Shown: positions 5,755 through 49,038 of the stretch, one piece after another | How the letters are laid out: every line of letters begins with the position of its first letter | Position numbering within the stretch: the stretch's first letter is position 1 | Source of the DNA: Bacteriovorax sp. BAL6_X | GTDB taxonomy: Bacteria; Bdellovibrionota; Bacteriovoracia; Bacteriovoracales; Bacteriovoracaceae | Assembly (NCBI RefSeq): GCF_000443995.1 | Contig: NZ_AUMC01000006.1 | Location: 558,001-622,000 of the forward strand | Direction of reading: 5' to 3' | Length of the DNA stretch: 64,000 nucleotides | Made by a program: the position numbers and the translations under genes | The notes under the pieces: model-generated | Database searches by the model: none | What the model was told of the DNA's origin: nothing | The model's input: the letters and a program-made list of their open reading frames with translations, nothing else

Positions 5755-7095
5755 ATGAGCACGATACCAAGCTTAAAAACATTACCAATTATCGGCAGTA
5801 TTGGAGAGTTAAACTTCAAAGATTGTCTTTTTAAACAACTTAATGAAAAAAGTAATGAACTTGGTGATTCATATCGTTTTAAAATTTTTAACAAAGATAT
5901 TGTGGTTATTGGAAATTATGACCTCTATAAAGATGTAATTGTTAAGAAAAGAAATACATTCTTAAAAGGAAGCACACTTAACGAGATAAAACATATTAAT
6001 AAAGGCAGGGCCTCAATACTTGATGCTGACGGTAAACAATGGCAAGACTTAAGAGGGGAGTTAGTCCACTTTTTCACGCCCAAAGTACTTGAGAACCTCT
6101 ATTCAATTACAAATCGTAGGCTTGAAAAAGATCTTCCTCTATTTGGTGAAAATTCTCTTGTTGATAATGTCGAAGTTCTTATGGGAAAAATCGCATTAGC
6201 AATTACAAGTGAATTCTTTATCGAACACGATTTTAAGATTCAAAAGGAAGAAGTCACTAACTCTAAAGCTGACTGTGACAGTTTTTATTACTTTCAAAAA
6301 TTTTTAATTGCCGAACTTACTAAACGTATGAATTATGGTCCAATGTGGAAGTACCTTCCTACATTGAGTAATCTTCGATTTTCTAAATTTATCAAAGAAG
6401 GTAAGCAATTTGTTCGTCAAAAAGTTGAAAGAGGGACAACTAGCTATACCCTCATTACTCACTTAAAGAATCAAGGCCTAGATACTGAAGCAATTATTGG
6501 ACAAATTTATGGACTGGTTGGAGCATCATTTGAATCAACAGCTGTTTCTCTTACGTGGGCGCTGTATTTTCTTGCTCAAAATGAAGAACTTCAAAATGAA
6601 TTATATAAAGAATTAAGTTTATTAGATCTTACGAATTCTAATTCTATAATAAAGAACCAGCTACTAGAAAATTATGTTGCAGAAACTTTACGTCTAAGGC
6701 CGGCCTTCCCTATTTTATTTAGAGAAGCCGCAGAAGATAAAGAGTTATCAGATGGTGATATAAGTTTCAAAGTAAAGAAAGGAACCGTTGTTTTTTCTCT
6801 TCTTGGAAAAATTCTTAATAACCAACAGGTTTGGGGAGACGATCACAACAAATTTAATCCACAGAGATTTAATAGTTTATCTAATGAACAAAGGAAAGCT
6901 TACATACCGTATTCGACAGGAACTCGCACTTGTCTCGGACGTGAGATGGCCAGCATCGAGGTAAAGCTCATACTAGCACATATTTTAAGAAGTTATCACA
7001 TAAAGGCGGCCTGTGACTTAAGTAAAGTGAAACCAAAACAGAAGTTTGTCTTTAGTAGTGACCGCGAAATTTCTTTAGAATTTATCCGTCGTTAA
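5755..7095 (+). CDS. Cytochrome P450
   Basis: This is a full-length soluble P450 (446 aa), a haem-thiolate monooxygenase. The I-helix oxygen-binding region reads GASFEST (canonical AGxxTT-like). The K-helix ExxR is ETLRLR. The haem loop is PYSTGTRTCLG with the axial Cys393; the usual Phe at the start of that loop is Tyr. No ferredoxin or reductase gene is adjacent, so the redox partner must lie elsewhere. No membrane anchor is visible, so it is cytoplasmic. Substrate unknown. Confidence 0.92.
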   Translation: MSTIPSLKTLPIIGSIGELNFKDCLFKQLNEKSNELGDSYRFKIFNKDIVVIGNYDLYKDVIVKKRNTFLKGSTLNEIKHINKGRASILDADGKQWQDLRGELVHFFTPKVLENLYSITNRRLEKDLPLFGENSLVDNVEVLMGKIALAITSEFFIEHDFKIQKEEVTNSKADCDSFYYFQKFLIAELTKRMNYGPMWKYLPTLSNLRFSKFIKEGKQFVRQKVERGTTSYTLITHLKNQGLDTEAIIGQIYGLVGASFESTAVSLTWALYFLAQNEELQNELYKELSLLDLTNSNSIIKNQLLENYVAETLRLRPAFPILFREAAEDKELSDGDISFKVKKGTVVFSLLGKILNNQQVWGDDHNKFNPQRFNSLSNEQRKAYIPYSTGTRTCLGREMASIEVKLILAHILRSYHIKAACDLSKVKPKQKFVFSSDREISLEFIRR

Positions 7096-8857: not shown

Positions 8858-9433
8858 ATGATTAAGTATCTCTCTCTCCTTATATTTATGATTTCCTTTA
8901 TCTTGGCATCGGCCTTCTCATGCTCTAGCAAAGAGAAAGTCACAGAAACACAAAGAATGCCCAGTTCCAAAGAACTCACTGACTTTGAAAGACTAGATCA
9001 AAATTGGCTTGATAGGGGAATTGAGGCCCGAGATAACCTTGGGATGATTGAGAATCGATTTGAGCAACAAGATATGTGTATCAAGGACTTTGAAAGGGCA
9101 TTCTACTACTTTACCATTCCGGAACATGCATATGTGTTAAAGGCAAAGCAGGCCACTGGTATGGTCTACACATTTAATATTTTACATGGGAGTGAACTTA
9201 GAGATGATCCAACTTTTTTAAAAATGACGATGGTAAATTTTTACTATGATACAAAAGGTTCTTTAATAAAAGTTGATGTGCCTATCCTTGCTAGAGGGTG
9301 GAGAATGCAGATGTCATCAAATACTCCTAATGGATTTATGATCGATAACTCTAAGTGTTACTATTTTATTAATATAAACGACCCTTTTGAATCAGGAGTA
9401 CTGTCAATAAAGAGTGATGGAAAGGATATTTGA
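8858..9433 (+). CDS. Putative lipoprotein (191 aa)
   Basis: From the ATG at 8858 a hydrophobic segment leads to ASAFSCSSK, a lipobox-like sequence, so the protein is probably lipid-anchored at the Cys. An earlier ATG at 8840 adds six residues. The body is without recognised domain and has two further cysteines. It stands alone between two secreted-protein genes. Confidence 0.5.
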   Translation: MIKYLSLLIFMISFILASAFSCSSKEKVTETQRMPSSKELTDFERLDQNWLDRGIEARDNLGMIENRFEQQDMCIKDFERAFYYFTIPEHAYVLKAKQATGMVYTFNILHGSELRDDPTFLKMTMVNFYYDTKGSLIKVDVPILARGWRMQMSSNTPNGFMIDNSKCYYFININDPFESGVLSIKSDGKDI

Positions 9434-32405: not shown

Positions 32406-33365
32406 TTATTTATCAGTTGGATTTAGGTTTAGGTATAAATTCCCACGAAATAGGCTCATGGCACCACTAAGCGTATCCCCTACTTGATACTTACAATTAG
32501 TGCCTACATAGCGTACTCCGCGCATTAGAAGCTCGCTTTCTGATAATGGGTTTAAGTATGCACCCATCCATACATCAGGATATTTTGTACGAATATGGCA
32601 GCCGTAGTCTGTGGCCGTTACCTCTGTGATTTCAGCGACTCCCTGGGCCTCTTCATAGTCATAATCAAATTGATATTCATAGCGATCTTTTTGATAAGAT
32701 TTAAACCAACAATTTGGTCTTGGTTGATTTAAAAGACCGGCCTTAAGTGTGTCCACGCGGCACTGATTTTGAGGATAATCATTAAAGATTGTCACACTTG
32801 AGATATGGTCTGATTTTGCATTGATATCACTTCCAGGATAAATCACAGAAGCATCTCTGATGGCACGAAGGCCTCTTAGGCATGTTTTATCTTGTTTACA
32901 CTCTGTCAGATTCTCAGCGCTAATACCATCCAATTCAGTGCTTCCAGAGCTATTTAAGGCAAAGTATTTCTTTAAGCATTCATTAGTTGCAAAGTAATCA
33001 GATTGGGCCTCACTTGAGTATTTCTGTGTTGGCATCACTTTCGGGTAACCTCCGATAATATGGCCAACTTCATGACAAGCAATAAGGGCGAAGGCATCTT
33101 TAGAAAGCTTATTTTTGCGTACAAACTCTCCGTGAAAACTGAAACGTACAGATTCTGAATGCCCTTTATAGCCAACTGATGCATTTAACGTCTTTGACTC
33201 CCAATTAATGTCGACTTGGCGATTCTTGCCTTGTGGTAATTTTTGGTCATAAATACTAAGAACGCTTTCGACGACCTCGCGAAACTCTTCCTCTGATGTG
33301 ATTACACTAGAGGCAAATAAATTAGATGTGATAAGGCAAGTCGCTGCAAGTAAGAATGTTTTCAT
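32406..33365 (-). CDS. Secreted zinc metalloprotease (HEVGH)
   Basis: 319 aa, with a signal peptide (to LFASS). ALIACHEVGHIIGG is an HExxH zinc site near residue 98, and SEAQSDYFATNEC about 20 residues later supplies the likely third ligand Glu/Asp, the arrangement of gluzincin (M48-like) proteases. The C-terminal half is Cys-containing with no known domain. Probably a periplasmic or exported protease. Confidence 0.72.
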   Translation of the reverse strand: MKTFLLAATCLITSNLFASSVITSEEEFREVVESVLSIYDQKLPQGKNRQVDINWESKTLNASVGYKGHSESVRFSFHGEFVRKNKLSKDAFALIACHEVGHIIGGYPKVMPTQKYSSEAQSDYFATNECLKKYFALNSSGSTELDGISAENLTECKQDKTCLRGLRAIRDASVIYPGSDINAKSDHISSVTIFNDYPQNQCRVDTLKAGLLNQPRPNCWFKSYQKDRYEYQFDYDYEEAQGVAEITEVTATDYGCHIRTKYPDVWMGAYLNPLSESELLMRGVRYVGTNCKYQVGDTLSGAMSLFRGNLYLNLNPTDK

Positions 33366-33568
33366 TTTACTTATATAACAGACAATCTGAACGCTATGAG
33401 TAATATTGAAATCTATATATAGTGGTGTACAGATTTTGTTGAGACATTATCGCGACGAAAATCCCCTATTTTGCCCCTTATATTGACCCAAATTTAACAA
33501 TATTCGCTATTCCTAAGTCATATTCTTTCCCCTATAATGTGTCTAATTACTTAAAAATGCGAGGAAAT

Positions 33569-34693
33569 ATGTCAGTAAACGGCGTACCATTTATTACTTT
33601 AAATCGCTTTGAAGATGGGTTTCGTGAAGAATTCCTTTCGGGCGTTGAAACACTATTTGATAACACACAATTTATTGGTGGACCTCAGGTTAACAAACTT
33701 GAAGAGAAGCTAGCAGCTAAGACTGGAGCTAAATACTCAGTTGGTTGTGCCAATGGAACAGATGCGATCCAAATTGCCCTAAGAGCAAGTGGCGTTGAGA
33801 AGAATGATGTTGTTCTTGTTCCTGATATGACTTTTTGGGCGACTTTTGAGGCCGTTGTTAACGTTGGTGCAAATCCGGCAACTGTCGATGTTAGTCGCGA
33901 AACTCTTCACTGGGATAAGGAAACTTTCAAAGAAGCAGTTGAGAAATTTAAGCCAAAGGCCGCTATTCTTGTTCACCTATACGGTTGGGCATGTCCAGAT
34001 ACAATGGAAATCAGACAAATTGCTGAAGAAAATGGCGTAATGCTAATTGAAGACGGAGCTCAGTGCTATGGGACGACGATCAATGGAGAATCGATTCTAG
34101 GTACTGCAAAAATTTCAACAACAAGCTTCTACCCAGCAAAGGTTTTAGGAGCTTCTGGAGATGCTGGAGCGATCTTCTCAAATGATGAAACTCTAATTAA
34201 TACTTGTCGTACTCTAATCAACCACGGACGTACAAGTCACTATAGCCACGGCCTAATTGGCTGGAATTCAAGAATTGGTGCTTACGAAGCGCTATTTCTA
34301 AATCTTTCTCTTGAGCATATTGATGCAAGACTTGATTCACGCCGCAAGGCCGTTAAGTACTATCAAGAAAACCTTCAAGGGCTTCCTCTTAAGATGCAAT
34401 CAGTACCAGCTCATGTAGGTGAAAATGGTTACTGTAGTGTTGCTCTTATTGAGCCAGAGCTCAGAGATGGTCTTACAGCTGCTCTAAAAGAAGCAAATGT
34501 AGGATTTGGGACAATTTATCCAGGTGCCATGAGTAAGCAAGAAGGTGCTCCTGCCCACAGTGTTGGATCAATTGATCGCGGTAATGCCGATTATATTAGT
34601 AAAGCAGTTTTAAATCTGCCATGTTTCGCCTATATCACGGAAGAAGAATGCGAGTACGTTTGCCAAGTTGTAAAAAATTACTTTTCAAAATAA
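33569..34693 (+). CDS. DegT/DnrJ/EryC1-family PLP aminotransferase
   Basis: The ATG at 33569 follows GAGGAAAT; a TTG-like earlier start is unlikely. 374 aa. Family landmarks: FIGGPQVNKLEEKLA, CANGTDAIQIAL, the cofactor Asp region LIEDGAQCYGTT, and SFYPAKVLGASGDAG with the PLP-binding Lys. These enzymes transfer an amino group to keto-sugars for O-antigen or capsule precursors. No sugar-nucleotide genes surround it, so the substrate is unknown. Confidence 0.9.
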   Translation: MSVNGVPFITLNRFEDGFREEFLSGVETLFDNTQFIGGPQVNKLEEKLAAKTGAKYSVGCANGTDAIQIALRASGVEKNDVVLVPDMTFWATFEAVVNVGANPATVDVSRETLHWDKETFKEAVEKFKPKAAILVHLYGWACPDTMEIRQIAEENGVMLIEDGAQCYGTTINGESILGTAKISTTSFYPAKVLGASGDAGAIFSNDETLINTCRTLINHGRTSHYSHGLIGWNSRIGAYEALFLNLSLEHIDARLDSRRKAVKYYQENLQGLPLKMQSVPAHVGENGYCSVALIEPELRDGLTAALKEANVGFGTIYPGAMSKQEGAPAHSVGSIDRGNADYISKAVLNLPCFAYITEEECEYVCQVVKNYFSK

Positions 34694-35478
34694 TCATATC
34701 AGGGGCCGTTTTTGCGGCCCCTGTTTTTTCTAACGGAAGAACCGAAAGGCTCAATCAGTTAGAAAGAGAAAGAAGTAAAAGGCCTATTCCAACTAATCAA
34801 GTTGGCCTTGGGACTAGTTTTTCATCTTCTCTCTATAAAGTTGGGGATAAATTCGATATTCCTGTCGTTCCTTCAATTAACTACAATTATAAGAGATTTT
34901 CTTTTCGTGGGATTGCCGCAAGCTTTCGCCTATTTCCCTTAACAAGTCTAACGCTATCTCCAGACTTTAACAAAGTAGAGGCCGAAGCAGGAACATACAA
35001 CGATGGACTAAAAGAGCGTGATCGCTCCCTTGATCTTGGTCTAACATTTATGTTGCCGACAAAGTGGTTTATGACAAGATTTAGTTACGCGCATGATATC
35101 AGCGGTCGATCACAGGCCAGCAAATACTATGTATCTGTTTCTAAGGCCTTTCCAATTGAACCTTGGAAGGATGAAAAAATTGTTTTAATTCCAGCTCTTA
35201 CGTATTCTCAGTATAGTGATAATTGGAGCCGTTACTACTTTGGTGTCTCAAGTCTTGAAGCACGCGCAGATCGCCCAGAATACACTCCAGGGGCATCTCA
35301 CCAGCTAAGTGCTAGGCTCATTGTGAATTACCCTATTGGCAAGAAGTACGTGCTTAATAGCTTCTATTCGTATACGAAGTATTCTTCCGCGGTAGAAGAT
35401 AGCCCCTTAACGAAAAGAGGCTACCGCGAAAGTATTTTTCTTGGACTAAATTATATTCTTGGGAAATCTGTACAATAA
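34648..35478 (+). CDS. MipA/OmpV-family outer-membrane protein
   Basis: The ATG at 34648 lies inside the aminotransferase gene and opens a signal peptide (CKKLLFKIIISGAVFAAPVFS). The remainder alternates as barrel strands. The C-terminus carries the family pattern YYFGVSSLEARADRPEYTPG, then a long pair of strands and DSPLTKRGYRESIFLGLNYIL. MipA/OmpV proteins are outer-membrane barrels linked to murein enzymes. The signal peptide codons coincide with a strong intrinsic terminator. Confidence 0.8.
   Translation: MRVRLPSCKKLLFKIIISGAVFAAPVFSNGRTERLNQLERERSKRPIPTNQVGLGTSFSSSLYKVGDKFDIPVVPSINYNYKRFSFRGIAASFRLFPLTSLTLSPDFNKVEAEAGTYNDGLKERDRSLDLGLTFMLPTKWFMTRFSYAHDISGRSQASKYYVSVSKAFPIEPWKDEKIVLIPALTYSQYSDNWSRYYFGVSSLEARADRPEYTPGASHQLSARLIVNYPIGKKYVLNSFYSYTKYSSAVEDSPLTKRGYRESIFLGLNYILGKSVQ
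34700..34729 (+). terminator. Strong intrinsic terminator inside mipA-like signal peptide
   Basis: CAGGGGCCG (34700-34708) and CGGCCCCTG (34715-34723) pair perfectly around TTTTTG, and TTTTTT follows. It starts seven bases after the aminotransferase stop, as a terminator for that gene should, but it is also codons 18-27 of the overlapping barrel-protein gene. Confidence 0.88.
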
Positions 35479-35514
35479 CTAAAGTAATTTTCATTGTTAA
35501 CCGACTAATTCACC

Positions 35515-36540
35515 ATGAAAAACTTTAAAGTCATTATCATTTTGCTCACTTCTATTCAATCATTTGGAATGGCCAAGCTCACAGAGTCTGAATGCTCACA
35601 AATTGATATAAGAGAGAATATGTCTCCTGGCATGCGAAAACACTTTTCCTCACCTCGAGATCAAGATTCTATTGGTTGGTGTTACGGTTTCACTGCTTCT
35701 GACCTAATTTCTGCTGAAGTTGGTGTTCCTATAAGTTCGGCCCACGTTTCGGCCATTTATAATAAGTCCGTCGATAATAGTACATTTATGAAATTAGGCT
35801 ATAATATTGGAAATTTAATCATAAACGATAAATTTGAAGATGTCTATGAGGGGGGCTATGCTAGCATGGCCATTCGTAAGAGCTCTAATGGACAAGAACT
35901 ATGTCGTGAGTCGGAGTTTCCTTTTGATAAAAACAACTATGGGGATACGCAGTCCTTAATCCTCAGACTCGAATCGATAAGAGAACATATTAAAAGCTCG
36001 GATAGCAAATCGAAGAAATTAATATGTAGTGAAGTTGAAGCTATTAATACAGATTATAACTTATCTATTGATGCAACAAAACTTCAGCTTGCACTTGAAA
36101 AGGAATCATTGAATGCTCTCTTAGAAAAAATCATCGATGATCACTGCAAGAATAAAGTAAAAATACCAAAGTTTAGTGTAAGAACTATGAAAAAGCCAAA
36201 GCGACTCTCTGGCCGGCAACATGAAAGGCATGAACACGCTAGAGACATAAAAAAATACTTTAAAAAGATTGGGGCCCAATTGGCCAAAGGAAAACCAGTT
36301 GGTGTTAGTTATGGTGCGAATCAGATAGCTTCTAGTGGAACCAACCATTCTAGTGTTCTTATAGGAAGGGCATGGAGTGATGGTCAATGCCTATTTGAAA
36401 TTAGGAATTCATGGGGTAAAGGTTGCGAAGCTTACGATAGAGATAAAATTGAACTTTGCAACTCTTTTAAAGGTTCATTTTGGGTAAGTGATGAAAAGTT
36501 TTATAAGATGGTATATGAAGTACAGTATATTGATAATTAG
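35515..36540 (+). CDS. Secreted papain-like (C1) cysteine protease
   Basis: 341 aa. Signal peptide to about residue 19. Active site: Gln50 and Cys56 in RDQDSIGWCYGF, His in GTNHSSVLIGRA (about 283), Asn in FEIRNSWGKGC (about 304). All four residues of the papain site are in place and order. A Lys-rich insertion lies between the two lobes. There is no obvious long inhibitory propeptide. Likely an exported protease. Confidence 0.82.
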   Translation: MKNFKVIIILLTSIQSFGMAKLTESECSQIDIRENMSPGMRKHFSSPRDQDSIGWCYGFTASDLISAEVGVPISSAHVSAIYNKSVDNSTFMKLGYNIGNLIINDKFEDVYEGGYASMAIRKSSNGQELCRESEFPFDKNNYGDTQSLILRLESIREHIKSSDSKSKKLICSEVEAINTDYNLSIDATKLQLALEKESLNALLEKIIDDHCKNKVKIPKFSVRTMKKPKRLSGRQHERHEHARDIKKYFKKIGAQLAKGKPVGVSYGANQIASSGTNHSSVLIGRAWSDGQCLFEIRNSWGKGCEAYDRDKIELCNSFKGSFWVSDEKFYKMVYEVQYIDN

Positions 36541-47667: not shown

Positions 47668-49038
47668 ATGTCAACTCATACAAATGAAGTTATTGTTGCG
47701 AAATTTGGTGGATCCTCGATGGCAAACCTGGAGGCCATGACTCGATCTGCGCAGATCAGTGTTAATAAAGGTGCCAATATGGTCATCGTTTCAGCTGTCT
47801 ATGGTGTTACAAATCTTCTTGTGGAGATATCTAAAAAAGCACCTGCTGGTGACGAGACCCGCGTGAATGAACTTATTCTTGAAATAGAAGATAAACATCG
47901 TGAAATCCTTCAAGATATGCAAGCTACAGAGAGTTTAAAAGATGATATGACTCAACTTCTTTCAGAAGTTAATATGATTGCCAAGGGGATGCTCCTTTTA
48001 AGAGAATGTTCAAATCGAGCATATGACTCATTAGTAAGTCTTGGAGAACGGCTTTCATCTCTTGTTTTTAGTGAGGTACTAGCACGTATCACAGAACAGT
48101 CAGCATCGAACAAGAGAGTTGAATTATTTGATATACGTCAGGTACTTGTTACAGACGACAGTTTTACCAAGTCCTCTCCTGACATTAAAGAGACTAAGGC
48201 CCGTGCAGATAAGTTATTAGTTAACGCAAAATATGGTGACATCGTCTATGTTTCACAGGGCTTTATTGGAGCAACTAGCGAAGGGTTAACAACAACTTTA
48301 GGACGAGGTGGTTCAGATTATTCTGCGGCACTCATTGCAGAGGCCATGGGTGCCGACACACTTCAAATTTGGACTGATGTTGCAGGTATTGCAACAACAG
48401 ACCCTAGAATTGTTAAAGAAGCAAAACTTTTAAATGAAATTACATTTTCTGAAGCGGCCGAGCTGGCAACTTTTGGTGCAAAAATACTTCATCCAACGAC
48501 CTTAACCCCGGCATTACGTGCTGGGATTAAGGTCTTTGTTGGATCGAGCTATGAACCAAATGAACCAGGAACATGGATTAAAGCACAAACTCAATCTGCG
48601 CCGTTAATTCGTGCCATGGCCTTAAGACGTGAGCAAAGCCTTGTCACATTATCGACCCCAAAAATGCTCCAAGCACATGGATTTTTATTTGAAATTTTCA
48701 AAATCTTTAACGAGTTTAAAGTCAGTATTGATTCAATAACAACATCAGAGATTTCAGTAGCACTTACTTTAGATGATAGTGCTTTATTAAATAAGAAGAT
48801 TATAGATCGTTTATCTGAGCTTTGTAGCGTAAAAGTAGAAAAGGATTTAACATTAGTAAGTCTTATTGGAAACGAAATCAATCACACACCAAATATTGCA
48901 GCACGAATTTTTAATGCAATTGATGGAATTAATGTTCGTATGATTTGCTTAGGTGCTAGTAAGCATAATTTTTGTTTCTTAGTAGGTAAGAATGATGCTG
49001 ACGAAACAATTCAAAGATTACACAAGGAATTCATTTAA
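47668..49038 (+). CDS. lysC: Aspartate kinase, lysine-sensitive type
   Basis: Phosphorylates aspartate, the committed step. 456 aa, matching E. coli aspartokinase III. Landmarks: VAKFGGSSMANLEAM, TLGRGGSDYSAALIAEAM, IWTDVAGIATTDPR, AELATFGAKILHPTTL. Two ACT domains occupy about 310-456, the site of lysine feedback inhibition. First gene after the lysine riboswitch; its stop overlaps the next start (TAATG). Confidence 0.94.
   Translation: MSTHTNEVIVAKFGGSSMANLEAMTRSAQISVNKGANMVIVSAVYGVTNLLVEISKKAPAGDETRVNELILEIEDKHREILQDMQATESLKDDMTQLLSEVNMIAKGMLLLRECSNRAYDSLVSLGERLSSLVFSEVLARITEQSASNKRVELFDIRQVLVTDDSFTKSSPDIKETKARADKLLVNAKYGDIVYVSQGFIGATSEGLTTTLGRGGSDYSAALIAEAMGADTLQIWTDVAGIATTDPRIVKEAKLLNEITFSEAAELATFGAKILHPTTLTPALRAGIKVFVGSSYEPNEPGTWIKAQTQSAPLIRAMALRREQSLVTLSTPKMLQAHGFLFEIFKIFNEFKVSIDSITTSEISVALTLDDSALLNKKIIDRLSELCSVKVEKDLTLVSLIGNEINHTPNIAARIFNAIDGINVRMICLGASKHNFCFLVGKNDADETIQRLHKEFI

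Follow-up and report, generated by a model that had tools for sequence, protein, structure and literature searches.

A candidate intrinsic terminator overprinted on the predicted signal peptide of a MipA/OmpV-type gene in Bacteriovorax sp. BAL6_X

We analyzed a 64,000-nucleotide (nt) stretch of the genome of Bacteriovorax sp. BAL6_X (contig NZ_AUMC01000006.1, positions 558,001 to 622,000 of the forward strand), referred to here as the window. Our focus is the junction between an aminotransferase gene and a gene encoding a MipA/OmpV-type outer-membrane protein, designated mipA, where a terminator-like hairpin coincides with predicted signal-peptide codons (Table 1). The aminotransferase matches PF01041 with E 2.9e-81 and 273.9 bits (cut-off 19.8), and the gene may be transcribed from a promoter of the form TTCCTA-17-TATAAT, which agrees with the consensus at 9 of 12 positions. 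The mipA product scores 117 bits against PF06629 (gathering cut-off 24.2) and covers profile positions 1-219 of 221 without a stop. Against the equivalog model for OmpV of Vibrio (NF045789), it scores 50.1 bits, below the curated cut-off of 400.

Table 1 Features of the aminotransferase/mipA junction, in window coordinates
Feature	Position	Strand	Basis or remark
TATAAT, possible -10 element of the aminotransferase gene	33533-33538	+	consensus match alone
DegT/DnrJ/EryC1-type aminotransferase gene, stop TAA 34691-34693	33569-34693	+	PF01041
MipA/OmpV-type outer-membrane protein gene (mipA)	34648-35478	+	PF06629; alternative starts ATG 34621, TTG 34660
Overlap of mipA with the aminotransferase 3' end, 46 nt	34648-34693	+	
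Predicted signal peptide MRVRLPSCKKLLFKIIISGAVFAAPVFS	34648-34731	+	sequence and hydropathy
Terminator hairpin, loop UUUU, 10 pairs	34700-34723	+	stem search and folding
Terminator U-tract, T6	34724-34729	+	within codons of ...P-V-F-S

The hairpin, CAGGGGCCGT-TTTT-GCGGCCCCTG, is separated from the aminotransferase stop codon by a spacer of 6 nt. Its stem comprises nine Watson-Crick pairs and one U-G pair, with G-C in 8 of the 10, and folds with a minimum free energy of -21.7 kcal/mol (z = -6.0), a stability that none of 200 shuffled sequences equaled. The GC-rich hairpin, short loop, and U-tract abutting the stem are those of an intrinsic (Rho-independent) terminator. Only 3 of 326 intergenic terminators reached -21 kcal/mol when the same method was applied to 2.4 Mb of sequence, which comprised the genome that contains the window (G000; 1,195,645 nt, window included) and 400,000 nt from each of three relatives. 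A search of 34400-35000 against Rfam returned four chance-level matches, none of which approached the gathering score. The bases of the hairpin and T6 are in-frame codons of the predicted mipA signal peptide. The initial annotation had placed a terminator after the aminotransferase gene and had proposed that the same bases encode a signal peptide; both points are borne out by the 10-pair hairpin with its T6 and by a mipA open reading frame (ORF) that remains open across it.

Sec signal peptides have a positively charged n-region, a hydrophobic h-region, and small residues at positions -3 and -1. The N-terminus of the mipA product is predicted to be an export signal from its hydropathy and from the N-termini of its homologues. 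It contains KK in the n-region, reaches a hydropathy of 2.3 in its best 12-amino-acid window, and offers V-F-S and V-F-A sites by eye; family homologues also begin with similar hydrophobic N-termini. In the predicted peptide, the n-region corresponds to the 3' end of the aminotransferase gene read out of frame, and the h- and c-regions correspond to the terminator.

Three in-frame start codons are available to mipA (ATG 34621, ATG 34648, and TTG 34660); the first 300 nt of the ORF contain no others of the ATG, GTG, or TTG type. At ATG 34648, Shine-Dalgarno pairing scores -3.5, compared with medians of -4.9 for genes that start with ATG (n = 745) and -2.2 for random interior positions. A consensus scan of the + strand from 33000 to 36500 yielded no promoter-like site, and the best candidate between 34440 and 34655 matched at 8 of 12 positions, not above interior coding windows (mostly 8-9). 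Because there is no near downstream start and no promoter above background, expression of mipA needs read-through of the hairpin, as the initial annotation had argued.

A survey of the 2.4 Mb sample revealed that this arrangement recurs. Genes were called by a simple codon-based method (n = 2091), and terminators of -9 kcal/mol or better were scored in the first 180 nt of each. Sixteen of the 2091 genes carried such a terminator, whereas the counts in interior control windows were 0/1535, 2/1019, and 0/1612. When codons were shuffled synonymously among start windows within each genome (100 shuffles), the expected count averaged 2.5 and never exceeded 9; at -13 kcal/mol or better, 11 genes remained against a null that averaged 0.41 and never exceeded 3. 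Fourteen of the 16 follow a tandem gene with a gap of at most 120 nt before the called start, an arrangement found for 1050 of the 2091 genes overall. None follows a divergent gene, although 600 of the 2091 genes do. This placement fits terminators that belong to the upstream gene. By inspection, we judged 10 of the 16 cases robust (mipA, L072, L090, L150, L151, L156, L100, L110, L178, and L187) and six doubtful (L140, L099, L108, L118, L170, and L183), because in the latter the gene may really begin at a start codon shortly past the hairpin. Full U-tracts are carried by mipA, L150, and several others. A genome-wide preference for signal-peptide genes was not seen; 10 of the 16 cases have a hydrophobic N-terminus, compared with 44% of the 2091 genes.

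A 400-kb Escherichia coli control gave 1 case among 315 called genes, against a null mean of 0.63 and a maximum of 2 (100 shuffles). The lone case is gcl, the start of which was misplaced by our calling; its annotated start lies further downstream. The control is small, and the rate of 16/2091 predicts only about 2.4 cases in it, so the count is no proof of a difference. We also considered whether terminators generally read as hydrophobic peptides, and rejected this idea: an open 12-codon window with a hydropathy of 1.8 or more occurred in 33/326 intergenic terminators, 30/326 random sequences, and 60/326 shuffled ones.

Two of the window genome's cases have features of their own. In L072 (G000:C6:30001-50000, 6602-6626, minus strand), a TATAAT directly precedes the terminator-like hairpin and the ATG lies inside it. 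Since transcripts that begin from this TATAAT would lack most of the 5' arm, the hairpin could stop incoming transcription only. In L090 (G000:C6:630001-650000, 9051-9076, minus strand), the first codons of a folP-like pterin-binding gene (PF00809) hold a strong terminator-like hairpin, 24 nt past the upstream stop.

A second locus in the window genome has the same layout as mipA and is conserved across the family. The 3' part of an iron-sulfur (Fe-S) protein gene with a cysteine-rich CCG domain (PF02754) contains the start of the next gene, which encodes a secreted cysteine-rich protein, and a terminator lies 10 nt past the first gene's stop, where it is read as LGSVLAGPSFF in the signal peptide of the second. 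The secreted protein (L150:8057-9994, minus strand, and its orthologues) is about 640 amino acids long with many invariant cysteines; it has no Pfam match, and 124 of the 129 family genomes contain a match to it. A first set comprised 36 orthologous loci, of which 32 were analyzable (4 lacked the upstream motif), and 21 of these contain a hairpin of -13 kcal/mol or better within 90 nt past the upstream stop, against a synonymous null that averaged 0.76 and never exceeded 3 (160 runs). A second set comprised 71 loci, titled mostly Bacteriovoracaceae, Halobacteriovoraceae, Bacteriovorax, Halobacteriovorax, or Bdellovibrionales, of which 56 were analyzable (9 were too near a contig end and 6 lacked the upstream motif). 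Such a hairpin is present in 42 of the 56, against a null that averaged 0.67 and never exceeded 4 (200 runs); some genomes occur in both sets, and those that are related do not count as independent observations. In a gap-free stem alignment of five congeners, 98% of cells are paired, compared with 56% or less in every slid control, and both partners have changed in 5 of the 10 pairs. This count omits the window genome and three genomes of another genus, whose stems align only in a different register. The median distance from the stop to the hairpin is 12 nt, and it is no more than 27 nt in 34 of the 42 loci; each of the 42 also has a start codon ahead of the hairpin, at most 60 nt before the stop. 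Because a hairpin in this same position at the Fe-S pair is kept across the family of predatory bacteria, the overlap of terminator and signal peptide looks selected rather than accidental.

Together these features point to a model that we consider probable, if by no means secure: an operon-internal attenuating terminator is overprinted on a signal peptide, and its read-through is set by ribosomes, most likely those of the upstream gene. The aminotransferase gene and mipA would form a tandem transcription unit in which the hairpin and T6 act as the intrinsic terminator of the former while encoding the predicted signal peptide of the latter. Part of transcription would end at about 34724-34729 and the remainder would continue into mipA messenger RNA (mRNA), so that the terminator sets a low mipA share. 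Read-through would probably be higher when a ribosome on the aminotransferase frame trails RNA polymerase closely, because at the stop codon, with a spacer of only 6 nt, its footprint would extend over the beginning of the hairpin. Subsequent initiation at ATG 34648 or TTG 34660 would send ribosomes through the stem and hold the hairpin open. In short, we infer that termination and partial read-through occur in vivo and that ribosomes control them.

The model accords with measurements from an E. coli study (PMC4824070). With a two-reporter terminator, efficiency was nearly nil when the stem lay several bp past the stop codon and about 0.9 at distances over 30 bp; when the stop codon was shifted from 28 to 5 bp upstream of the terminator, it fell from about 90% to under 10%, and removal of upstream translation restored termination and abolished the repression. 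The hairpins described here lie within reach of a ribosome in the upstream frame, at 6 nt for mipA and at 27 nt or less in 34 of the 42 Fe-S loci. The initial annotation had suggested translation-dependent antitermination by a ribosome on the mipA start codon. Antitermination of this kind is plausible and matches the E. coli data (PMC4824070), but the agent needs revision: the hairpin begins 52 nt past ATG 34648, so a ribosome sitting there would not touch it. An elongating ribosome could reach it, as could one halted at the aminotransferase stop, and on this analysis the likelier agent is the ribosome finishing the aminotransferase, not one initiating on mipA.

Several observations weigh against this model. 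The mipA locus itself is not conserved. The mature MipA protein is matched in 42 of 129 family genomes, the best alignments being only about 30% identical; no close orthologue was found among these nearest homologues, and a pattern search for close ones returned 95 stretches, none of which was confirmed. At nine loci with an aminotransferase orthologue (53-77% identical), other genes lie downstream, and mipA follows in 0 of 9; at one of them, in the relative G018, an unrelated terminator comes straight after the stop and is followed by a convergent gene. Other cases in the window genome fare poorly as well: an ExbD-type case is retained in 3 of 12 loci and a DUF218 case in 2 of 12, counts that include the window genome, and for a third gene 18 relatives yielded no homologue. 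The U-tracts of the Fe-S hairpins differ widely: at least 6 of the 9 nt past the stem are T in 18 of the 42 loci and 3 or fewer in 12, and the mean T count of 4.45 is little above the synonymous expectation of 3.83. Since the stem is kept while the U-tract is uneven, termination may vary between strong and weak from species to species. Finally, terminators within the first 100 bp of a coding region were efficient in E. coli (PMC4824070); read-through would therefore be rare unless an upstream ribosome masks the hairpin.

Two homologues of MipA (L007 and L054) have a TATAAT-like box very near the start codon, and their mRNA may be leaderless.

The most serious competing explanation, which we regard as possible though not the likelier, is a plain terminator with a constant leak, in which a fixed fraction of polymerases passes, translation plays no part, and the overlap follows from genome compactness. 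The strong stem with its T6 and the confinement of embedded terminators to positions behind tandem genes are what such a terminator would show. Ribosomes that lag behind polymerase, as PMC7858274 infers for many bacteria, could not mask the hairpin; if ribosomes lag here too, termination would proceed whatever their position and mipA expression would depend on the leak. Set against this, the Fe-S hairpins lie mostly where a terminating ribosome would mask them. Their position does not decide between masking and leak, however, because ordinary terminators are also near stops. The median distance from stop to stem is 24, 10.5, and 21 nt in G000, G003, and G018, respectively, and 18 nt in E. coli; the fraction within 10 nt is 0.297 (n = 74), 0.50 (n = 54), and 0.340 (n = 47) in the same three genomes and 0.276 (n = 29) in E. 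coli. As a proxy for runaway transcription this distance proved uninformative, the relatives not being separated from E. coli. Coding sequence shows a purine excess of 0.054-0.067 in the four genomes and 0.030 in E. coli, a difference that, in view of PMC13323073, is suggestive only with regard to runaway transcription.

It is unlikely, in our judgment, that the hairpin serves mainly as a 3'-end stem, either to shield the upstream mRNA from exonucleases or to slow translation of the signal peptide. Such a role would account for the Fe-S locus retaining the stem far more strictly than the U-tract, but not for the full U-tracts at mipA, L150, and several others, and a purely translational role in the signal peptide is at odds with the absence of cases after divergent genes.

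We attach very little weight to the idea that the mipA ORF is truncated, frameshifted, or otherwise misread, so that the true signal peptide is lost and no read-through is needed. The lack of a close orthologue and the weak Shine-Dalgarno pairing at ATG 34648 would agree with it, but the near-complete, stop-free match to PF06629, the plausible in-frame export signal, and the similar hydrophobic N-termini of homologues speak against it.

Chance was evaluated by generating 40,000 random synonymous recodings of 35 codons from 34660 with the genome's own start-region codon usage. A terminator of -9 kcal/mol or better appeared in 5,626 of them, one of -13 or better in 2,274, and one of -20 or better in 6; the mipA peptide is thus prone to forming such a hairpin, but not one of this strength. 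That the residues SGAVFAAPVF merely happen to use self-complementary codons gains something from the first of these counts and is the least credible explanation of all, given the last of them, the position of the hairpin 6 nt past a stop codon, and a class of cases that exceeds its null.

It is tempting to speculate more broadly, though we do so tentatively and would not be surprised to be wrong, that selection in Bacteriovoracia maintains terminators in signal peptides as a regulatory element, in which export codons double as an attenuator of their own transcription; the Fe-S/cysteine-rich pair would be its family-wide form and mipA a recent, lineage-specific one. If so, one stretch of DNA would serve both protein export and transcription termination and be kept by selection across a bacterial family. 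An exported protein would be transcribed only while ribosomes run through its export signal, and the gene would fall silent if translation slowed there. Such genes would offer a natural system for asking about transcription-translation coupling in predatory bacteria. Software for calling genes or finding terminators would misplace starts or ends in these genomes if it treats the two features as exclusive.

Elsewhere in the window, the aminotransferase/mipA pair is flanked by ORFs at 35515-36540 (+ strand, 341 amino acids) and 32406-33365 (- strand, 319 amino acids); both have signal-like N-termini and no Pfam match at 0.001. A called gene at 47668-49038 holds an interior hairpin (48500-48532, + strand, -18.4) with a T-rich tail.

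Precedents exist for terminators within coding sequence, for terminators under ribosome control, and for operons expressed by read-through. In pyrBI attenuation, a leader peptide and a terminator stand ahead of the structural genes. The proposed mipA mechanism shares with attenuation of this type the principle that ribosome position relative to the terminator sets read-through (discussed also in PMC4824070), but a full upstream gene replaces the leader and the terminator lies inside the next coding sequence. The VPA1349 terminator of Vibrio parahaemolyticus, which belongs to an upstream operon and lies beside a stop codon, likewise allows expression of a downstream gene, vtrB, through read-through; unlike at mipA, no placement inside a coding sequence is indicated in the available text of that report (PMC10971746). 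Mapped 3' ends in E. coli ORFs and 5' untranslated regions include ends in coding sequence, some of them intrinsic; the accessible part of that study describes no upstream-gene terminator overprinted on a signal peptide such as that of mipA (PMC7815308). In the open-access literature, we found no report of an upstream gene's terminator overprinted on a downstream signal peptide, nor of one kept across a family. A further parallel is the E. coli tR2 reporter (PMC4824070), which has a GC-rich stem and U-tract a few nt past a stop codon and is repressed by the terminating ribosome, with read-through expected if ribosome and polymerase are coupled. Unlike tR2, the candidate mipA terminator also encodes the predicted signal peptide of the next gene, the start codon of which lies upstream.
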